Positions 3,271-26,720 of a DNA stretch of 64,000 nucleotides are shown here, in pieces. The stretch comes from Methanohalobium evestigatum Z-7303. GTDB lineage: Archaea > Halobacteriota > Methanosarcinia > Methanosarcinales > Methanosarcinaceae. The stretch spans positions 2,063,423 through 2,127,422 of the forward strand of contig NC_014253.1 in NCBI RefSeq assembly GCF_000196655.1, given 5' to 3'. How positions within the stretch are numbered: position 1 is the stretch's first letter; each line of letters starts with the position of its first letter. The notes beneath the pieces were generated by a model that saw only the letters and a program-made list of their open reading frames with translations, was not told the origin of the DNA and searched no databases. Made by a program: the position numbers and the translations under genes.

Positions 3271-4665
3271 TTATCTTGGTGATATTTCCTTTTCAGCAGT
3301 GTCAGAATAAGCTCTGACATTATTATTCCTTATATCTTCAGCGACCTCGAATTCTATAGTTTTGTCACTGTTTACACCCACTCTGATATCCCATTCAACA
3401 AAATCAGCGTTTGTTTCAACAGGTTCTACACTGGAATCCAACAATTCACCGAATTCCCACATGTAACGAACCGTAACAGTTTTGGGGTTATTGCCAAAGT
3501 TAGTTATATTTATTTCACCGGTTCTTGTTATGTTGCCTGCATTCCTTGTTTCTTCAAGAATTTCTGTTTCACCTTTTAAATCAAAGGCACTACCAAGATT
3601 GATTTCAACTTCATCACCATCAGGTGTTCTGTCAATTGAACTTTGACCAACCATTACCTGTAAACCATCTTTTTCCTGATAAACATTAACAGTCCCCTTA
3701 GGCAGTGGTTCTTCATTGTTTGCAAAGGTTAAAAACTGCCGGACATTTTCATTTCTACCATGTCTTGAGGTAGTGTACATGAATTCGGTTTTTGAGTCTA
3801 TATTTTTGTCCAGATATTTGGTGGATTGCCGTGAATATGCATCAATTGCAAGCTGTCCGAGTTCATATTTATAAACTCTCCCTACTTTTTGAGGTGCTGA
3901 AACAGACCTCTCAAAACCATCGCTTATAGATGCTCGTTCCTCAGCAAAACCTACATATCTACTACTCATTACCTGTCCTGATATTAAATTGAAGTTTCCA
4001 TCATAGTTTGTATTACTGGGGTTTTTGATTATCATATCTCCACTGAACCTGCTGGAACTATCCGAATCTTTCATGTACAGATCATATGATGCATCCCATG
4101 TAATACCGTTTACCCGGTATCTAAGCTGGAAATCAAAGGAACCACTACCTGAAGATTCAATTCTTGCCATGACTTTTGAATCCGAATCACTGGTTGTTTT
4201 TATCTGGTTGACATTGTTTGTATTAATGTAGGATATTCTCTCATCATTCTCAAGAACCATAAGACCATAAGGATAATTGTCTTCAATTCTTAAAAGCACA
4301 CCTGATACTGTTTTACCGGATGTAAGTTCTATTTCTACTTCTTTACCAATGTTTGTTTTTATATTATCTCTAAAATCCGTTTTTATATCAACAACCTCTA
4401 ATACATCCGAATTTTCAGGTTCAAGTTTTATAGAATCTGGATCAACATTATCTAAATTTTCCATGTCTTCAAGTTCAACCCACTGTACCCCTTGTTCAAG
4501 TTCAAGACTAATGCTTTTTTCTACAATTCCTCCCTGATTTGAATCATAAATCAGATAGTTTTCATTTGAATTTCCGTTCACTCCATTAACCTGAGCAGAT
4601 ACTGCAATCGCAAGTAATGCGACTATTCCAATTATAAGAATAGCTTTTTTTAAGTTATATCTCAT
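3271..4665 (-). CDS. Exported DUF4139-domain protein
   Basis: 464 residues with an N-terminal signal peptide (KKAILIIGIVALLAIAVSAQ, likely cleaved after the Ala-rich end). The body has the DUF4139 pattern: an N-terminal part with ITYLNTNNV-like strands, then RYRVNGITWDASYDLYM (near residue 180) and a C-terminal beta-sandwich with repeated ETRNAGNITRTGEINITN strands. Proteins of this family are surface or secreted and mostly uncharacterised; some carry mucoidy-related or adhesion annotations. No membrane anchor or sorting signal is visible at the C-terminus, so it is probably released or complexed. Ser/Asp/Asn-rich composition fits a halophilic surface protein. Confidence 0.7.
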   Translation of the reverse strand: MRYNLKKAILIIGIVALLAIAVSAQVNGVNGNSNENYLIYDSNQGGIVEKSISLELEQGVQWVELEDMENLDNVDPDSIKLEPENSDVLEVVDIKTDFRDNIKTNIGKEVEIELTSGKTVSGVLLRIEDNYPYGLMVLENDERISYINTNNVNQIKTTSDSDSKVMARIESSGSGSFDFQLRYRVNGITWDASYDLYMKDSDSSSRFSGDMIIKNPSNTNYDGNFNLISGQVMSSRYVGFAEERASISDGFERSVSAPQKVGRVYKYELGQLAIDAYSRQSTKYLDKNIDSKTEFMYTTSRHGRNENVRQFLTFANNEEPLPKGTVNVYQEKDGLQVMVGQSSIDRTPDGDEVEINLGSAFDLKGETEILEETRNAGNITRTGEINITNFGNNPKTVTVRYMWEFGELLDSSVEPVETNADFVEWDIRVGVNSDKTIEFEVAEDIRNNNVRAYSDTAEKEISPR

Positions 4666-4684
4666 TTCATCACCATGTGTGAAC

Positions 4685-6035
4685 TACCGCTGAGCTAAAG
4701 ACTCAGAGGCTTCGAGAGAAGTCTACCTTGAAAGTCTTATTCTCTCTGGGGAGTTCACATCCCCACTATCGATTATCCCTGTAAGAGAATCACCGATTAC
4801 CTTTCTCAGAATGTTCAATGCTCCATTGATATCGGCATTAATCAGTCTACCTGTTGATGACTGGAAGATACCTCTCTTAGATCGTCTACCAAGATATTTC
4901 TTATTTTTTTTGATAGGTTCTAAAGCCAGTGCATCTACCTTGCTGGTATAAGCCTCATCTACTTCGTGATACTTTATACCATGATATTCACACTTAGAAG
5001 CTAATTTATATTTAAACCTAGCAAATGGTATTGTCTGGAAGTTCTGGGTATTCTGCTTTCCGATATTTTGTTCCTGTTTGATTTCTTTGAGTTCTCCAAT
5101 CACAACATTACCAATCTTATTCTCCAGACAATGTTTAACGATATGATTAACGCACTGGTTCATGAAATCATTTATCTTCCAGAATCTATTATTAGAGAAT
5201 CTATCCATTTTGATTCCATTATCTATATTCTGTTTGTCGTAGACTGACTGTAACCTGCTCTTCTCCTTGTTCCACCAGCGGTTGTAAGATTTGATACTCC
5301 TGCCATCTAATATGAATGCAGTCCCGCTGGTCGTTACACAGGTTGCAAAGTTGTCCACTCCAAGATCTATCGATAGATGGCTATTGTAATCAAGTTCAGC
5401 AATCTCCCCATCTTCATGATATACAAATTCTATCTCGAACCATCTACCCTTGTATTTCGGTACGATCCTGACCTGATTGATGTATTGACCTATTATGTTG
5501 TCAGGAATCTTGAAGTATAGATATTTGATTCCATAAGTTCTGTAATAATCCAAACCTAACGATAACCTTATCTTATCATCGATAACCTTCAGTTGATCTT
5601 TCTTGAAAGTACATATGAAGTTACTATCTTTATCCAGATACTTTGGAAGTGAAACTGGTTTCTCATATTCTCCTTTTCTCTTCTTATCCAGAAGTTTGAA
5701 GAACGATTTCATACTGTCATCCACAGTTTCCACAGTATTCTGGGCAACCTGTGATGGCATCATTCTGTAATTCTCGTTTTCTTTGACCGTATGATAAGCA
5801 GTATCTTTATCGAGATATTTGCCATGATTGAAAAAGTACTGTCTAATCGTGTACAACGTGAAATTGTACAGGTTCTTGGATAGTTTGGTCAACCTCTTCA
5901 AAGTTTCATACGTCTGCTTATCAGCACGGAGATGGTTCTTCTGGGTTAGATACATGCATTATACAATCATTTAGCAAAATACTTATCTTTTTTGCCTATT
6001 TATCATACCACGATGCTAAAGACATCGTGGTTTTC
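4685..6035 (-). mobile_element. TnpB-only IS605-type element (element A)
   Basis: The element carries one tnpB gene and no tnpA. Each end has a hairpin with the same 7-base loop, CTAAAGA on the plus strand: stem CTGAG/CTCAG at 4690-4706 and a 9-base stem (ACCACGATG/CATCGTGGT) at 6007-6031. Subterminal hairpins of this kind are bound by the HUH transposase TnpA in IS200/IS605 elements. The downstream region next to the tnpB stop also folds (GGGGA/TCCCC) and is where an omega RNA (reRNA) would be encoded. Exact ends cannot be fixed because these elements make no target duplication. Confidence 0.7.
4723..5955 (-). CDS. tnpB: TnpB RNA-guided nuclease, variant lacking the zinc finger
   Basis: A 410-residue IS605 OrfB protein, full length for the family. 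The split RuvC site is intact: Asp in SIDLGVDNF (near residue 200), Glu in VIGELKEIK (near 290) and Asp in NADINGALNI (near 375). The Cys4 zinc finger found between the second and third motifs of most TnpB proteins is replaced by TSKVDALALEPIKKNKKY, with no Cys pair; this is a known sub-branch of the family. TnpB uses an RNA transcribed from the element's 3' end to cut DNA next to a short target-adjacent motif, helping the element persist. With no TnpA here, movement would depend on a transposase supplied from elsewhere in the genome. Confidence 0.9.
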   Translation of the reverse strand: MYLTQKNHLRADKQTYETLKRLTKLSKNLYNFTLYTIRQYFFNHGKYLDKDTAYHTVKENENYRMMPSQVAQNTVETVDDSMKSFFKLLDKKRKGEYEKPVSLPKYLDKDSNFICTFKKDQLKVIDDKIRLSLGLDYYRTYGIKYLYFKIPDNIIGQYINQVRIVPKYKGRWFEIEFVYHEDGEIAELDYNSHLSIDLGVDNFATCVTTSGTAFILDGRSIKSYNRWWNKEKSRLQSVYDKQNIDNGIKMDRFSNNRFWKINDFMNQCVNHIVKHCLENKIGNVVIGELKEIKQEQNIGKQNTQNFQTIPFARFKYKLASKCEYHGIKYHEVDEAYTSKVDALALEPIKKNKKYLGRRSKRGIFQSSTGRLINADINGALNILRKVIGDSLTGIIDSGDVNSPERIRLSR

Positions 6036-6135
6036 TTCATCTTTATAAAATCATTCTTTTTGTAAGGGAAAGACCTAACAACAAATTTAGAAATATTATC
6101 TACCCTATATACAGCAGCTTAATATGGGACGAGGA

Positions 6136-7740
6136 TACTGACTACTCTCCCACGACTAAATCGTGGGGTTCTTTTGAGAGCCTCAACCTCTTAATAGGTT
6201 GAGCGTTTGCTGATTCATCGGCGGTACTTGCGAACCGATACCGAGACCGGTCGTAGAGGTACCATCTCCACAGCCGTTCATTCCCGCGAGCCCCACGGTA
6301 TGCATTGGGTTATAGTACGATGATTTTGTCAGAATATTGACTGCAGCGTTAAGATCCCTGTCGATTTCTAATCCACATTTACTGCAGTAGAATATTCTAT
6401 CTCCCAATCTCAGTTTCTCTTTTTTCTTGGTTCCGCAATGAGAACAGACCTGTGTAGTATTGTCGGGATTAATCTTGTCTACAATCTTACCTCTCTCAGC
6501 AGCTTTATAGGTTACGTGCTGAACCAGTTTATCCCAGCCTACATCCGATATGATTTGGCTAATCTGTTGTTTTTTATGAGATTTTTTATTTTTAAATCCT
6601 CGAATACAATCAGGTCATATTTCTCCACCAAAAGTTTGCTGAGACAATGTGAGAAATGGTTTCTAGCAGATGCGACTTTCCTGTGAATTCTGTTCACTTT
6701 TTGCTTCTGCTTTTTATAGTTGTTAGATCTGAATTCCATTCTCGACAATCTTCGCTGTTCTTTAACAAGCCTTTTTTCAGCATTTCTGAGGAATTTCGGT
6801 GGTTCGACAAAATCATCGTTTGAAGTTTTTATGAAAGATTTCAGTCCTAAGTCTATGCCAACAGCGTTTGTAGGAGTAGATGGAACTGGGTTTTCTGGCA
6901 ATTCTACTGTCAGATATGCGAACCATTGTTTGCCTTCCTTCTTGAGGGTACAGGTCTTCAGTTCACCATCTGGCAATCTGTCAATATCAATTTTGATGGG
7001 TTTTGATTTACCGGTTATTTTGGATAGGTATAACTTGTTTTCTTCAAGTTTCCACCCGTTTCCATGCTGTTTGTAGCTGAAACTACTGAAATCTTCTTTA
7101 CTCTTGAACTTCGGGTGACCTTTCGGAAGAATTCCATCGTATTTGATAAATCCGGATGAATTGTTCCCACATGGTATGTCTTTCCTCTTGACGAACATCC
7201 CTTTTTTAGGTTTGGTGTTTTTCAGTCTCCCGTTCTTGATATCATCAAAAAACTTGTCATAAGCGGAACATAATCTCTGGAATACATCCAGTCTTACTGA
7301 TGAATGTATAGGATAGTCCAGATTTTTCAGGTATTTTTCCAGAGATGATTTAGATACTGACAGATCAAACCTATCGTATAAATCTACTCTGATGGACAGA
7401 AGATGGTTCCAAATCGACCTGCAGTACTCTAAAGTTTCATCCAGTTTCTTCTCCTGTTCAGGAGTAGGATGTATCTTGAATCTCAGATTCCTGCAGTTTT
7501 GACCTCCTTTTCAAACCATCGACTCCACCCTTTTACTTGATACTGATTATACGTTTTGAAACTATATAATTTTTATCTACTGTTAGCGATTATAATGTTT
7601 ATCATAAAACTTATCAAACATCAACGGGGTTGTTTAATCACTCTTTAAACGGAGTTTAAAGATATCTTTAAATCGTTGATTTAAAGAGAACGACTAAAGT
7701 CGTTGGCTTTCACGTACCCCTGTTGCCCCACTTTCGTAAA
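6136..7740 (-). mobile_element. TnpB-only IS605-type element (element B, decayed gene)
   Basis: The right end has the hairpin CCCACGA-CTAAA-TCGTGGG (6149-6167). The left end has AACGAC-TAAA-GTCGTT (7689-7704) followed by a 30-base stretch at 7701-7730 that is identical to 26680-26709 in element C. The motif CAACGGGGTTGTTT near 7621 also has a counterpart in element C. The left end carries about 40 extra bases with TTTAAACGGAGTTTAAA-like repeats that element C lacks. The element lies directly beside element A with only about 100 bases between them. Confidence 0.7.
6183..7519 (-). pseudogene. tnpB: tnpB pseudogene (nonsense at codon 3 plus frameshift)
   Basis: Translation joins into a complete TnpB of about 445 codons with two lesions. 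The ATG at 7519, preceded by GGTGGAG, is followed by GTT and then TGA (7511-7513), after which the same frame runs on through NLRFKIHPTPEQEKKLDETL and the RuvC Asp (GIDLGLKSF). Near 6550 one base is missing: the frame ends at AKSYRM, while the +1-shifted frame continues as SDVGWDKLVQH with the zinc finger CSHCG...CSKCG and the last RuvC Asp (IDRDLNAAVNI). All catalytic residues survive, so the decay looks recent. Sequencing error could explain one lesion but less easily both. Confidence 0.85.
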
Positions 7741-16038: not shown

Positions 16039-17319
16039 ATGTCAATAATAAATGTTAATCAATCCCTTAAATATCATGAAGGGTCACAGCGAGTATATGA
16101 TGAAGATACCACTCTTGAAAAAACAAAGTCCCAGCTTAAAAAAATCGGAGTTACGCGTATAGCAGATATAACTCATCTTGACAGAGTGGGTATTCCTGTC
16201 TATTCTGCAATCAGACCATGTGCTGCTAAAGGTGCTATATCTGTTTATTCCGGAAAAGGTGTTACTTCCACCCAAGCCAGGATTTCTGCAATGATGGAAG
16301 GATTTGAAAGGTGCCTGGCAGAAAAAAAAGATATGAACAATAACATACAGGAAGATATCCCTGGCGATGAATTTGTTGATTCCTTTGATAATATAAAAGA
16401 AACATACTATATAGTAAACCCTGCAAAACTTCTCATATCAGAAGATGTAAGAACAGATGACATGATAGAATGGACCAGTGGATGGGACTTGATAAATGAT
16501 AATGAAATCTATGTTCCATCAAATTCAGTCTATCACCCCTACGATGCCACAAACCAGTGTGTGAAACTGTTCAGAAGCAACACAAATGGTCTTGCAGCAG
16601 GTAATGTGATAGAAGAAGCAGTACTTCACGGATTACTGGAAGTTACTGAAAGAGATGCCTTAAGTATTGCAGAAATGAACAGAAACCCCGGTAAAAGGTT
16701 AATGCTTGATGAAGATGATGGCATAAGTTATGAACTAATGCAAAAATTCAATGATGCAGGTATTAATGTCAGACTCTGGGTTCCCTATCATGATACTGAA
16801 ATTACAACGGTGGTTGCATCGGTTGATGATGCTCAATTAAAAGATCCCGCAATGCTTGTGATGGGTGCTGGAGCTCATCTAAACCCGGAAATTGCCACCA
16901 TAAGAGCCCTTAACGAAGTCGCACAATCAAGGGTTGTACAGATTCATGGTGCAAGAGAGGATACTGAAAGGGACAAATTCGTCCGTAATATCGGATATGA
17001 ACGCATGAAAAGAATGAATGGCTTCTGGTATAAAGATGAAGATATAGATACCACCACATTAAAAGATTTAAACGATTTGTCCAGAAATTCGCCAGCAGAA
17101 AATATTAATACCGTGATTGACCAGCTCAAAAATTTAGTTGATAACGTGGTTGTGGTCAATCTATCAAGGGAAAGCGTAAATATTCCGGTAGTAAGAGTTA
17201 TTATACCTACCTTTGAAATGTATACACTTGACAGAGAAAGAGTTGGCAAAAGGAAAAACATCGCACTGAAAAAAATCAGAAGAAAAGGCGAAAAAACATG
17301 GAACCACAAACGAGTTTGA
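16039..17319 (+). CDS. ycaO: YcaO-domain protein for McrA thioamidation
   Basis: YcaO enzymes phosphorylate a backbone amide with ATP to allow its conversion to a thioamide. Paired with TfuA in methanogens they convert a glycine of methyl-coenzyme M reductase alpha subunit to thioglycine, shown genetically in Methanosarcina acetivorans. 426 residues. Recognisable motifs are KGVTSTQARISAMMEGFERCLAEK (near residue 75), with ATP/Mg-binding Glu, NGLAAGNVIEEAVLHGLLEVTERDALSI (near 185), and EVAQSRVVQIHGAREDTERDKF (near 295). It lacks a Pro-rich tail typical of some azoline-forming YcaO proteins. tfuA overlaps its end by 22 bases. Confidence 0.9.
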   Translation: MSIINVNQSLKYHEGSQRVYDEDTTLEKTKSQLKKIGVTRIADITHLDRVGIPVYSAIRPCAAKGAISVYSGKGVTSTQARISAMMEGFERCLAEKKDMNNNIQEDIPGDEFVDSFDNIKETYYIVNPAKLLISEDVRTDDMIEWTSGWDLINDNEIYVPSNSVYHPYDATNQCVKLFRSNTNGLAAGNVIEEAVLHGLLEVTERDALSIAEMNRNPGKRLMLDEDDGISYELMQKFNDAGINVRLWVPYHDTEITTVVASVDDAQLKDPAMLVMGAGAHLNPEIATIRALNEVAQSRVVQIHGAREDTERDKFVRNIGYERMKRMNGFWYKDEDIDTTTLKDLNDLSRNSPAENINTVIDQLKNLVDNVVVVNLSRESVNIPVVRVIIPTFEMYTLDRERVGKRKNIALKKIRRKGEKTWNHKRV

Positions 17320-17990
17320 ATATAAAAAAACCGAAAAATCCCAGAATTACTGTTTTTGCAGGCACAAGCATAACCCATGAGGATGCTAAAGAAATACTCA
17401 ATGCTGACTATAAACCTCCTGTTTACAGGTGTAACATCGATAAGGCGATGAAAGAAGGATACAACATTATCGGAATTATCGATGGAGTATTCTTTGATAA
17501 AGCGGCTGTTTCCCACAAAGAGATAATAAAAGCACTCAAAAACAATGTCATCGTTGTGGGTGGATGTAGTATGGGTGCTTTACGTGCATCAGAACTTGAT
17601 GATTATGGAATGATAGGCGCAGGAAAAATATATGAACAGTACAGGGATGGTGTTATAGAGGCTGACGATGAGGTGGCTGTTGCTACAAATCCTGATACCT
17701 TTGAACCTGTATCCAAACCTCTGATAAATATCAGGCAAACTCTGAAAGCGGCATATGAAGATGATATTATTGATGATAAAACCTACAGCAACTTGATAGA
17801 AATTGCAAAACATACCTATTATCCATACAGAAGCTACACTGGTATTATTAAACAGGCTGTCAAAAATAATATCCTTACAAAGAAAGATAGCAACAATATT
17901 TTGCGGTATTGCAGAGAAAATGAGATAGATATTAAACGTCAAGATGCAATTGCAGTTCTTAATACCATAATAGAAATCGTTGATAGCTAA
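17298..17990 (+). CDS. tfuA: TfuA-like partner of YcaO
   Basis: 230 residues with the TfuA core: ITVFAGTSITHEDAKEIL (residues 17-34), IDGVFFDKAAVSHKEIIKALKNN, and VVGGCSMGALRASELDDYGMIGAGKIYEQYRDGVIEADDEVAV (near 90-135). TfuA is thought to support the YcaO reaction by delivering or activating sulfide for thioglycine formation in McrA. It overlaps ycaO and is certainly cotranscribed. The GCSMGALR stretch resembles a nucleophile-elbow motif and includes a conserved Cys. A sulfur source gene (cysteine desulfurase) is divergent just upstream of ycaO. Confidence 0.88.
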   Translation: MEPQTSLNIKKPKNPRITVFAGTSITHEDAKEILNADYKPPVYRCNIDKAMKEGYNIIGIIDGVFFDKAAVSHKEIIKALKNNVIVVGGCSMGALRASELDDYGMIGAGKIYEQYRDGVIEADDEVAVATNPDTFEPVSKPLINIRQTLKAAYEDDIIDDKTYSNLIEIAKHTYYPYRSYTGIIKQAVKNNILTKKDSNNILRYCRENEIDIKRQDAIAVLNTIIEIVDS

Positions 17991-18011: not shown

Positions 18012-19211
18012 TTACTTAGAGTATTTTCTTCTTACAAGGTAAAACACTAAAAGCAAGCCAGCAATTGAATAAATCGCCTCGAAACCTGGCTCTTCTTCTG
18101 GCGGTTGGGCATTTATAACTTCATCAAACCTTTCTTCTGAATTATTCAGATAACTAATAGCCATTTCCATATTATGGACACCAAGACTTCCATCTTCCTC
18201 AACCGCTGTCATGTAATACAGTGCATTATTAAATACAGCTTGTTGTTCCTGATATATCTGAGTTCCATTCAATTCTTCCAGTGATTCTTCAGCATTTTCC
18301 CGTTTTGTTTCAAGGTCTTGAAGCCTACTGGATATCCTTGACTGCTGGTTTTCTATAACACCTGATAGTTCAGCCCCGTGACATCTGGAACAATTATTTG
18401 TAGACTCTGAATCCACAACCAATGAAACATTCATATCGAATGTATGTCCGGTCTCTGCCGATTCATTTGTAGTTTCATTGAATGGTTTGGCACCCATATG
18501 ACAGTCCACACACCCTATTTCTACAGGATGCTCACCATTTACATAACTGGAATTGCTGTATATATCCCACTGAGTGTATCTGGCTATTGTTGTCTCTCCA
18601 TCTGGTTCTGCACCACGGGAATTATGGCAGTTAGAACATAGTTTTACTTCATCTTCTACATGTAACCCGGTTGAATGCGGCTCATGACAGGCCACGCATG
18701 TAAGTCTCCATTCTTCCACATCTGAAGGATTTGGCAGGTTTTCCTCATTAAAATCATGAACATCTGCACCTTCAAGGTTTACAACTGCTCCTTCAGTACT
18801 TTTACAAGCCACACAATCATCAGAATCCTGAACAAATGGTTCGGTTACATCTGACGGTTCAGAATGGCTTGCCATGTTTTCTGTATCAAAATCATCCTTT
18901 GAATACTCGTCCCACTCATCAAATATTGGTTTATGTGGTTCATTATGGCATTTTCCACATAACTCAGCCGAATAATTCATACCCGGGTCTATTTCAGTGG
19001 GATTATCTATATGTGCTTCATAACCTTCTTCTGGTGGGCTATGACAGACTTCACAGCCTACATCCGATTCATTTAAACCGGAATGATTTGACATGTTCCA
19101 TGTTTCATAAACATCCGGATGACACTGACTACAGTCCTCTGGATTCAATGCCATGGATGTTGTTGTCATCAATATTAATATAGTCACCACAACAAAAAGA
19201 TATTTTTTCAT
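18012..19211 (-). CDS. Octahaem c-type cytochrome with CxxCK fourth site and PGF-CTERM tail
   Basis: 399 residues. Signal peptide at residues 1-21. Haem motifs: CSQCH 27, CEVCH 53, CGKCH 85, CVACK 133, CVACH 172, CSNCH 192, CVDCH 234, CSRCH 274. The Lys-ligated motif in fourth place matches the catalytic haem of octahaem nitrite reductases. The C-terminal helices with DGSLGVHNMEMAISYL resemble the NrfA/hydroxylamine-oxidoreductase helical domain. The end has PGF (375-377), a hydrophobic helix and RRKYSK, the PGF-CTERM signal cut by archaeosortase before lipid attachment. So it is an outer-face membrane cytochrome. It could reduce nitrite, hydroxylamine or a sulfur oxyanion, or be an electron carrier; substrate is not decided. 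The known methanogen cytochrome MmcA has seven haems. No cytochrome-maturation gene is nearby. Confidence 0.85.
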   Translation of the reverse strand: MKKYLFVVVTILILMTTTSMALNPEDCSQCHPDVYETWNMSNHSGLNESDVGCEVCHSPPEEGYEAHIDNPTEIDPGMNYSAELCGKCHNEPHKPIFDEWDEYSKDDFDTENMASHSEPSDVTEPFVQDSDDCVACKSTEGAVVNLEGADVHDFNEENLPNPSDVEEWRLTCVACHEPHSTGLHVEDEVKLCSNCHNSRGAEPDGETTIARYTQWDIYSNSSYVNGEHPVEIGCVDCHMGAKPFNETTNESAETGHTFDMNVSLVVDSESTNNCSRCHGAELSGVIENQQSRISSRLQDLETKRENAEESLEELNGTQIYQEQQAVFNNALYYMTAVEEDGSLGVHNMEMAISYLNNSEERFDEVINAQPPEEEPGFEAIYSIAGLLLVFYLVRRKYSK

Positions 19212-19373
19212 ACACCCTCCCCTCTGTATTGTGCTTTATGGATAAGTTTATCAAAACCGATATAAAAATTTACTCTGATTGATTAACGGTTATATTATAT
19301 TAAAAATGAGAAAAAATATATAACATAAATTTGTGTGTGATGAAAACAAAACCATAAACGGAGATTGTAAAAT

Positions 19374-24612: not shown

Positions 24613-24906
24613 ATGGTTACAACACAAGTTCCCTGGACATTTGCATGTGCAGATGAAAAAGGGGAGAATTTAAACATTGAAATCGACTTGCCTGGCATAA
24701 ATAAGGAAAATATTGACTTTAAGATGCATGATAACAGTTATACTGTAAGAGCTGTCAATGACGATATTAAATATGCAGGAACCTTTCCTACCTGCTGCCC
24801 GGTGATACCAGAAAAAGCAGTAGCCAAATACACCAACGAGAAACTTATTATTACTGTTCCATTCCAGGAACCTCATATGAAATCAATCGATTTAGAAATA
24901 GATTGA
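24613..24906 (+). CDS. Hsp20-like alpha-crystallin fold protein, copy 1
   Basis: 97 residues with the minimal alpha-crystallin core: FACADEKGENLNIEIDLPGINKENI (10-34), a central strand block, and KLIITVPFQEP near the end. It is shorter than true small heat-shock proteins and lacks the C-terminal IxI tail. Two Cys groups (ACAD near residue 11 and CCPV near 58) are conserved in the paralogue next door, which is unusual for Hsp20 proteins and may point to redox or metal sensitivity. SD GGGGG before the start. The neighbours, a second copy and a ferredoxin, are in line. Confidence 0.75.
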   Translation: MVTTQVPWTFACADEKGENLNIEIDLPGINKENIDFKMHDNSYTVRAVNDDIKYAGTFPTCCPVIPEKAVAKYTNEKLIITVPFQEPHMKSIDLEID

Positions 24907-24974
24907 TAAGGATTATTAAACCAATAACTTAAGTAGATAAACCAGAATATTGTCAAAAGGGGGAGTATAAAATA

Positions 24975-25277
24975 ATGGCTGAAGACCAATTAATACAGAC
25001 ACCATGTGTTTATGCATGTGCAGATGAAAAGGGAGATAATTTAAACATCGAAATCGACCTTCCGGGCGTGAAAAAAGATAATATTGAATTCAAAATAACA
25101 GAGGATAGTTTTGCCGTCAGAGCAAACAACACCGACATTAAATATGTCGGCAGTTTTGCTGTATGCTGTCCGGTTATGCCTGATAAAGCTGTTGCAAAAT
25201 ATTCCAATGATAAACTCATTGTCACAGTACCGTTTAAAGAATTACATGAAACTCCTGTAGAAGTTAAAGTACAGTAA
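24975..25277 (+). CDS. Hsp20-like alpha-crystallin fold protein, copy 2
   Basis: 100 residues, roughly 60 percent identical by eye to the preceding gene, so a tandem duplicate. It keeps YACADEKGDNLNIEIDLPG and the CCPVMPDKAVAKY block. The IEIDLPGVKKDNI element is the best match to the Hsp20 family. SD GGGGGAGT. It ends 25 bases before a ferredoxin gene with its own SD, suggesting a three-gene operon. Confidence 0.75.
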   Translation: MAEDQLIQTPCVYACADEKGDNLNIEIDLPGVKKDNIEFKITEDSFAVRANNTDIKYVGSFAVCCPVMPDKAVAKYSNDKLIVTVPFKELHETPVEVKVQ

Positions 25278-25525: not shown

Positions 25526-26720
25526 CTGACGTACTCCCACGGATAAATCCGTGGGGTTCTGTGGTCGGTGGGCGTCACACCGTTGCCACTTGCGGGGCGC
25601 CAGTACTCCCGTACGATGCATCTCTGTCTGCACCGCATTGATCTCCGGTGCGCATAGCTATATTGAACGCCGCGTTTGCGTCCGCATGATCAACGTGTCC
25701 ACAATGAAGACACTTGAATGAATCTCCATTTCTAATACCCAGATAACCACATCTACTGCAGTTCTGCGAAGTATATTCGGGTTTTACAAATTCAATTTTG
25801 ACTCCAAGCAGCCTGGCTTTGTATTCCAACATAAATTGTAGTTGATAGAACGACCAGCTGTGCAGGGAGTATTTGAACGATTTTTTACATTTCACAGAAT
25901 CCCTTATACCTTTCAGGTTCTCCATCCTGATACCACAGTTATTGGCAGCAGCGGTTTCCACTATCCTGGAACTGATTTTTTGGTTCAGATCCCTGACAAT
26001 CCTTGACTCTCTGTCATTGACCTGTTTAACCTTCTTGTATTTTCCTTTGACCTGTAGTTTCCTACGGTCGTTTTTATATTTCAGATGTATATGCTGTGCT
26101 TTTTTACCCAGTTTCCATACTTTACCAGTCTTCGGGTTAGACATCACAGCTATATGTCCGGTTGTATTCAAATCGACACCCAGATAATCCTCCGGTTCTA
26201 TTTGTTCTCTCTCAGGCACGGTCACCGACACATAAACGTATTTCTCACCGATTTCAATCTGGTTGATTTTTTCAAAATTATCAGGAAAATAATACCTCAA
26301 ATCAAGTTTAAGAGGAGTTATCCTTATTTTTCTCTCATTCCTGTTTAACTTTACACTCTGGTTAGGTATTGTCAGTTTAACACTATTTACCTTTTTAGCG
26401 GATTTATCTTTAGCATATTTATTGAGAATCTGGTTTGAAATAGCCGATTTCAATCCGATATGCTTGACATCTTTAGATGAACGGGTACGATATTTGACAC
26501 CATATTCGGCTACTTGCTTAGCTTTTGCAAGTTCTTCAGAGAAATCCCGATCATGTTTGATTTTATAAGTTAGTATCAAATATCATCGCCTCTGTTAAAA
26601 GATACGGGCTGATAGAATAAAATAATTATGGTTAATAAATCAATAACCAACGAGGTTGTTTCATCCAACGGTTAGATACCGTTGGCTTTCACGTACCCCT
26701 GTTGCCCCATCTTCGTAAAT
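25526..26720 (-). mobile_element. TnpB-only IS605-type element (element C)
   Basis: The right-end hairpin is CCCACGGAT-AA-ATCCGTGGG (25536-25555). The left-end hairpin is CAACGGT-TAGAT-ACCGTTG (26666-26684), followed by 30 bases identical to element B (26680-26709 versus 7701-7730). CAACGAGGTTGTTT at 26650-26663 also matches element B with one change. It is inserted between a ferredoxin gene and the end of a metallo-beta-lactamase gene, with only eight bases between the left end and the latter's stop codon. Confidence 0.75.
25575..26579 (-). CDS. tnpB: TnpB RNA-guided nuclease with zinc finger
   Basis: 334 residues. RuvC catalytic residues are present: Asp in YLGVDLNTTGHIA (near 134), Glu in GIRMENLKGIRD (near 217) and Asp in DHADANAAFNIAM (near 303). 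The zinc finger CSRCGYLGIRNGDSFKCLHCG lies between the last two. The N-terminus is short and lacks the HPTPEQEKKL-type helix seen in the element B protein; the two TnpB sequences are only distantly related although their element ends are almost the same. No tnpA gene accompanies it. The GC content of the gene's 3' end is slightly higher than the surroundings, as expected for the omega RNA region. Confidence 0.9.
   Translation of the reverse strand: MILTYKIKHDRDFSEELAKAKQVAEYGVKYRTRSSKDVKHIGLKSAISNQILNKYAKDKSAKKVNSVKLTIPNQSVKLNRNERKIRITPLKLDLRYYFPDNFEKINQIEIGEKYVYVSVTVPEREQIEPEDYLGVDLNTTGHIAVMSNPKTGKVWKLGKKAQHIHLKYKNDRRKLQVKGKYKKVKQVNDRESRIVRDLNQKISSRIVETAAANNCGIRMENLKGIRDSVKCKKSFKYSLHSWSFYQLQFMLEYKARLLGVKIEFVKPEYTSQNCSRCGYLGIRNGDSFKCLHCGHVDHADANAAFNIAMRTGDQCGADRDASYGSTGAPQVATV

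Follow-up and report, generated by a model that had tools for sequence, protein, structure and literature searches.

A putative OcwA-like multihaem surface reductase with a CxxCK haem motif in Methanohalobium evestigatum

We analysed a stretch of 64,000 nucleotides (hereafter the window) from the 2.41 Mb, two-contig genome of Methanohalobium evestigatum, a salt-loving, methane-making archaeon. A stand-alone gene in the window encoded a multihaem cytochrome c (P0001; Table 1). The initial annotation, made from the sequence alone, had described eight c-haem motifs with CVACK as the fourth, and the reading frame of 399 amino acids on the minus strand bore this out (seven CxxCH, one CxxCK). The plus strand of the same interval (18012–19211) contained many stop codons. 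The highest haem-motif count in 20,000 shuffles of P0001 was two, so the eight motifs are not a product of chance. A copy 95% identical to P0001 was present in a Methanohalobium metagenome-assembled genome (MAG), in keeping with the methanogen host that had been assumed. Comparison of the two copies gave a dN of 0.021, a dS of 0.144 and a dN/dS of 0.15, indicating that the gene is under selection. The same ratio ruled out an artefact or a pseudogene. Among open-licence papers, none was found that names the protein.

The gene converged with tfuA/ycaO-type genes, named from reading the sequences. These YcaO-like and TfuA-like genes overlapped (window positions 16039–17990) and adjoined the cytochrome gene on the opposite strand. 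The neighbours were not conserved in the loci of other genera, and no operon or electron-donor module was found beside the gene. A remote CxxCH homologue (L102, genome G207) was the sole locus that preceded genes for an Fe–S protein and an NrfD-like membrane protein, as judged by sequence reading. It was a nonahaem protein with CX3CH (CIDPNCH) as the last motif, and its locus (4130–7180) had an Nrf-like arrangement. Elsewhere in the window, two small tandem paralogous genes (24613–25277; 97 and 100 amino acids) were Hsp20-like in appearance, and a gene for a TnpB-like transposon protein lay on the minus strand (25575–26579).

Table 1. Features of the P0001 gene and its product, in window coordinates.
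Feature	Position	Strand	Basis
Octahaem cytochrome c gene P0001, 399 aa, ATG to TAA	18012..19211	minus	motif/ORF reading; stand-alone
Likely ribosome-binding site GGAGGG, directly 5' of ATG	19215..19220	minus	sequence reading
Signal peptide, residues 1–21	19149..19211	minus	KK, then hydrophobic stretch ending TTSMA
Haem 1, C27SQCH	19119..19133	minus	
Second haem, C53EVCH (nonahaem haem 3)	19041..19055	minus	
Third haem, C85GKCH (nonahaem haem 4)	18945..18959	minus	
Fourth haem, C133VACK, Lys137; proposed open reactive haem (nonahaem/OcwA haem 5, NrfA haem 1)	18801..18815	minus	
Fifth haem, C172VACH, then EPH179 as proposed distal ligand	18684..18698	minus	
Sixth haem, C192SNCH	18624..18638	minus	
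Arg211-Tyr212, putative distal pocket facing the Lys haem	18576..18581	minus	aligned with OcwA HHP loop and NrfA Gln263-His264
Seventh haem, C234VDCH	18498..18512	minus	
Eighth haem, C274SRCH	18378..18392	minus	
C-terminal three-helix bundle, residues 281–366, NrfA/HAO/OcwA type; distal ligand candidate H346	18114..18371	minus	model helices pLDDT 92–98; OcwA alignment
PGF-CTERM sorting tail, residues 375–396: PGF, hydrophobic helix, RRK	18024..18089	minus	Pfam PF18204

Residue A21 of the signal peptide was invariant in alignment A1. The C-terminal tail scored 34.6 bits with the Pfam model of PGF-CTERM (cut-off 18.8) and 13.5 bits with the NCBIfam model, below the cut-off of 24.5. The genome encoded archaeosortase A (ArtA; 272 bits, cut-off 75), so P0001 combined the PGF, the hydrophobic helix and the basic end of an ArtA substrate with a genome that carries the enzyme. 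The processing signal read from the sequence was thus upheld by Pfam, with NCBIfam under its cut-off, and by the presence of ArtA. The lipid anchor proposed with it is likely on the same grounds, and P0001 is likely lipid-anchored at the outer face. With regard to maturation, a search of the genome for a second CcmF or an NrfE-type lyase for the CxxCK haem found only the one CcmF. Because attachment of the CxxCK haem in Shewanella proceeds without NrfE (PMC12285233), a single CcmF is no obstacle to a Lys-ligated haem.

The family profile, searched against the PDB, matched OcwA of Thermincola potens (PDB 6i5b; 2.5e-48), OmhA (5.4e-41), ONR (8.5e-20), NrfA (9.4e-20) and MccA (1.5e-16); c554 and HAO were matched as well. 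OcwA ranked first for both the CxxCK-clade and the CxxCH-clade profile when these were run separately. An AlphaFold model of residues 20–372, with 42 sequences in the alignment, reached a pLDDT of 85.6 and a pTM of 0.84. An earlier run with 27 close sequences had given a pLDDT of 54, with the core below 50, and improved once remote archaeal homologues were added. The C-terminal helices were modelled with a pLDDT above 90, and the loop directly before CVACK (residues 123–131) with less than 50. In VIA-align comparisons, with Z differences under one treated as ties, the model matched ONR (8rv0) with a Z of 20.3 (315 residues aligned) and OcwA with 19.9 (291 aligned, 27% identity), next to TvNiR (about 19.5), NrfA (17–18.4) and OmhA (17.0). 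HAO (12–13.5, about 13) and MccA (11.5) had the same superfamily fold at lower values than the others.

The haem-motif order, the ligands and the C-terminal helix bundle all agreed with the NrfA/ONR/OcwA superfamily. Fold, haem architecture and superfamily membership of P0001 are well supported and very probably correct. The C-terminal helical segment of the NrfA/HAO kind noticed earlier corresponded to the three-helix bundle of the model. The proposed likeness to octahaem nitrite reductases held for the fold, which was of the NrfA/ONR type over nearly the whole protein, but the nearest solved relative by sequence was OcwA and not ONR. The Pfam model Cytochrom_C552 (NrfA) matched 28 of 42 family members; hmmscan did not report P0001 for it, and the genome search summed several pieces to 28–29 bits (cut-off 24.1). 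In a search of 11 genomes for a separate NrfA gene, only the P0001 locus exceeded the PF02335 cut-off. Kletzin et al. (2015) placed archaeal cytochromes that lack bacterial counterparts, and that they modelled on ONR 3f29, in a multihaem cluster 1 (PMC4429474); by this description the cluster resembles the P0001 family. By haem count, P0001 with its eight differs from MmcA, a cytochrome with seven haems that is tied to Rnf.

At a loose threshold, which also let in tail-only matches, 40 of the 112 genomes of the same family contained homologues. Full-length homologues occurred in five genera of the family, Methanohalobium and Methanococcoides among them; we presume that genus g9 is Methanohalophilus-type, g10 Methanolobus-type and families f3 and f5 ANME-type. 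Remoter homologues came from the same order (f3, f5), from G207 and from two family-f15 genomes, which we take to be perhaps Methanonatronarchaeia. The bacterial homologues found were remote.

Most relatives had nine haem motifs, the Lys haem being number five; the haem missing from P0001 (nonahaem haem 2) would fall between H43 and C53. The 'number four' position of the Lys haem in P0001 results from the secondary disappearance of haem 2. With the trait columns excluded from tree building, the presence of haem 2 required five changes. The deletion boundaries differed between Methanohalobium (HSGLNESDVGC), L012/L014 (HAGSEATIDPISC) and Methanococcoides (HGSASC), which argues for independent losses. 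As reconstructed from these sequences, the octahaem form arose from a nonahaem ancestor when haem 2 was lost, which happened independently on several occasions. A decayed motif, CGHCM, was present in L104. One clade of Methanolobus-type paralogues, kept in five genomes, was without haem 5. In the proposal of Costa et al. (2019), octahaem cytochromes descend from OcwA-like nonahaem ancestors that lost either haem 2 (HAO) or haem 5 (MccA) (PMC6703420), and both routes are visible in the P0001 family.

CVACK aligned with CIQCK of ONR and CWSCK of E. coli NrfA, that is, with their catalytic CxxCK position, in agreement with its designation as a catalytic-type motif in the initial annotation. In a 40-row alignment, the haem-5 position held Lys in 28 rows, His in five, Gln in one and Met in one, and was deleted in five. 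The Lys rows were all the methanogen-clade rows that keep haem 5, L104 included. Absence of the Lys from all relatives had been named as grounds for rejecting a catalytic haem; the residue was instead present in 28/28 methanogen homologues with this haem retained. In OcwA and the remoter archaeal relatives the motif there was CxxCH, so that CxxCK marks the methanogen clade among the sequences aligned. The distribution points to a gain of the Lys in the methanogen clade or a loss elsewhere, two directions between which the tree cannot decide because the remote rows sit on long branches. Haem 5 of the ANME-type relatives was CxxCH or decayed, so the wider family as a whole does not require the Lys. 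Two ANME-like MAGs (L072, L073) carried CLKCQ and CMKCM at this haem, with the proximal His lost and the Cys pair kept. A broken copy in genus g9 (L023, G030:C18) had a TGA and an altered motif where the CxxCK haem should be, and a TAG in place of a conserved Trp; either gene decay or a sequencing error would explain it.

Seven non-motif His residues (43, 67, 116, 179, 228, 256 and 346) were invariant in a 27-row alignment. Since their number equals that of the CxxCH haems, counting suggests that the Lys haem is probably without a distal His. An open, Lys-ligated reactive haem in P0001 is accordingly rather probable from the sequence comparison.

The second-sphere residues of NrfA are Arg, Tyr and His (PMC12285233). 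An octahaem nitrite reductase pocket with this triad had been set as the check on P0001, and all three residues were absent at the aligned positions. The catalytic Arg of NrfA lies about 20 residues before the Lys, a region that aligned with MASHSEPSD of P0001; SHSEP was invariant in A1, and residues 90–137, from the third haem motif to CVACK, contained no Arg at all. For the catalytic Tyr, CHVEYY of NrfA aligned with CHNSRG, and the alignment showed no conserved Tyr across the family. The catalytic His position was occupied by Tyr212 in P0001 and by His in most relatives. The pocket pair was HH, RH or LH in relatives (HH in L020–L022, L070–L073 and L104), RY in P0001, L011, L079 and L080, FY in the g5 rows and SY in L014. 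All 35 rows that have haem 5 carried H or Y at residue 212; the five rows without this haem, all of one clade, carried G. This covariation supports the placement of the loop over haem 5, although it represents a single evolutionary event.

These residues bear on the suggestion that P0001 is a true ONR-like nitrite or hydroxylamine reductase that detoxifies nitrite, NO or hydroxylamine by reducing them to ammonium. ONR (TvNiR 2ot4/3rkh; Trichlorobacter ammonificans 8rv0) reduces nitrite to ammonium and has a stable hexamer and a calcium site. Like P0001, it has eight haems with the CxxCK haem as the fourth, and the fold is shared over the full length (Z 19–20). The motif context CKST(E/D) also resembles CKSSD of ONR and CKSPD of E. 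coli NrfA, and the pocket His is retained in the rows of Methanohalophilus type and of Methanococcoides and in some of the Methanolobus-type rows. With NrfA itself, a pentahaem protein (E. coli 1gu6), haems 4–8 of P0001 correspond to haems 1–5, the CxxCK standing in the same place; P0001 has three more N-terminal haems and lacks the triad. However, P0001 is shorter than ONR (399 versus about 520 amino acids) and more weakly related to it by sequence than to OcwA. It has neither the catalytic Arg nor the Tyr after the haem-3 equivalent, and Tyr212 replaces the His. No nitrate or nitrite genes were seen adjoining its gene, and OcwA, whose pocket is His-His, reduces nitrite slowly (PMC6703420). 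The nitrite-reductase reading thus kept its fold, its CxxCK position and its conserved Lys but lost its active-site residues. We consider it unlikely, and less likely than an OcwA-like surface terminal reductase; with the canonical pocket missing, nitrite would be expected to react slowly if at all, as it does with OcwA.

A terminal reductase at the cell surface, OcwA passes electrons to shuttles and solid acceptors and also reduces nitrite (kcat 1 per min) and hydroxylamine (PMC6703420). Among the solved structures it gave the closest profile match and one of the two best fold matches. It shares with P0001 the three-helix C-terminal bundle with D-GS-G-HN and a pocket loop, HHPxxEM, that aligns with (R/L/H)(H/Y)x(Q/N)WEM of the family. 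The surface location is a further likeness, which for P0001 is predicted from the signal peptide and the PGF-CTERM tail. In contrast, OcwA has nine haems, CxxCH at haem 5 and an extra beta domain. Its open haems are 2 and 5, with His-His over the latter; P0001 has eight motifs (many family members have nine), is without haem 2, and has CxxCK, the Arg211-Tyr212 pocket and the PGF-CTERM anchor.

The closest solved relatives, OcwA and OmhA, are both surface cytochromes. Together with the likely outer-face location, this would also fit a cytochrome for extracellular electron transfer (to humics, quinone shuttles, minerals or partner cells) with the Lys haem as a leftover, and the haem-5-deleted Methanolobus-type paralogues do persist. 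Yet the Lys and the pocket H/Y were strictly kept wherever haem 5 stays, with the low dN/dS reported above. An unused site should drift, and this conservation weakens the leftover explanation, which we regard as doubtful. Reduction of sulfur compounds (sulfite, thiosulfate or polysulfide) at the Lys haem is highly improbable. The superfamily does include the sulfite reductase MccA, and ONR reduces sulfite too (PMC8840924). However, MccA was the weakest of the listed structural relatives, its active site is haem 2, which P0001 has lost, and OcwA does not reduce sulfite (PMC6703420). In HAO, the catalytic P460 haem is cross-linked to a Tyr.

Some nine- and ten-haem relatives contained an in-frame TAG. 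It occupied one shared alignment column, which lies between haems 2 and 3 and precedes a Tyr. The seven genomes concerned belong to two genera: G007, G008 and G009 of genus g5 (loci L032, L035, L036) and G038, G042, G050 and G058 of g10 (L079–L082). The paralogues L075–L078 in G059–G062 had Met in this column, and P0001 itself was without the TAG. The frame 3' of the TAG was under purifying selection, with omega values of 0.15–0.31 over both genera that are rough where dS exceeds 1; the G050 copy was truncated. The TAG state needed three changes on the tree. All these genomes contained pylS, and pyrrolysine is the simplest, and a probable, reading of the conserved TAG. No relevant link between pyrrolysine and multihaem cytochromes was found in open-licence papers, and to our knowledge a genetically encoded pyrrolysine near an open haem would be new for c-type cytochromes. 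The CcmF gene of G017 (L107, G017:C1:1125693-1126541) also had one in-frame TAG within the match, perhaps pyrrolysine too.

We hypothesize that P0001, whatever its substrate, acts as an OcwA-like terminal reductase that is lipid-anchored at the surface and has a reactive haem with Lys as ligand, and give this reading, which draws on sequence and model, a probability of roughly 0.6. P0001 would be an exported octahaem oxidoreductase of the NrfA/ONR/OcwA superfamily, from an archaeal OcwA-like lineage in which Lys (CxxCK) stands in place of the His of the reactive haem. A wire of seven putative bis-His haems would link the membrane side with the fourth haem and supply it with electrons. This haem would have Lys137 as the proximal ligand and no distal protein ligand, and Arg211 and Tyr212 would lie over its open face, where OcwA has His-His. 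With the fold and the Lys haem shared, the usual active-site residues absent and a nine-haem ancestry, P0001 probably represents a separate kind of terminal reductase at the surface. We put forward more tentatively a distinct class of Lys-haem enzymes, descended from a nonahaem CxxCK ancestor and with its own pocket (Arg/His plus His/Tyr), that may catalyse a reaction other than ammonium-forming nitrite reduction and have pyrrolysine near a second open haem in some members.

So far, a nonahaem CxxCK ancestor that would connect OcwA-like with octahaem enzymes has been put forward only hypothetically. In the P0001 family, CxxCK is already found in nine-haem members and both haem losses occur among close relatives, making the evolution of HAO-, ONR- and MccA-type enzymes testable on close homologues. 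If our reading is true, methanogens of salty habitats would own an outer-face multihaem reductase that lies outside known methanogenesis and has a reactive haem of the nitrite-reductase type.
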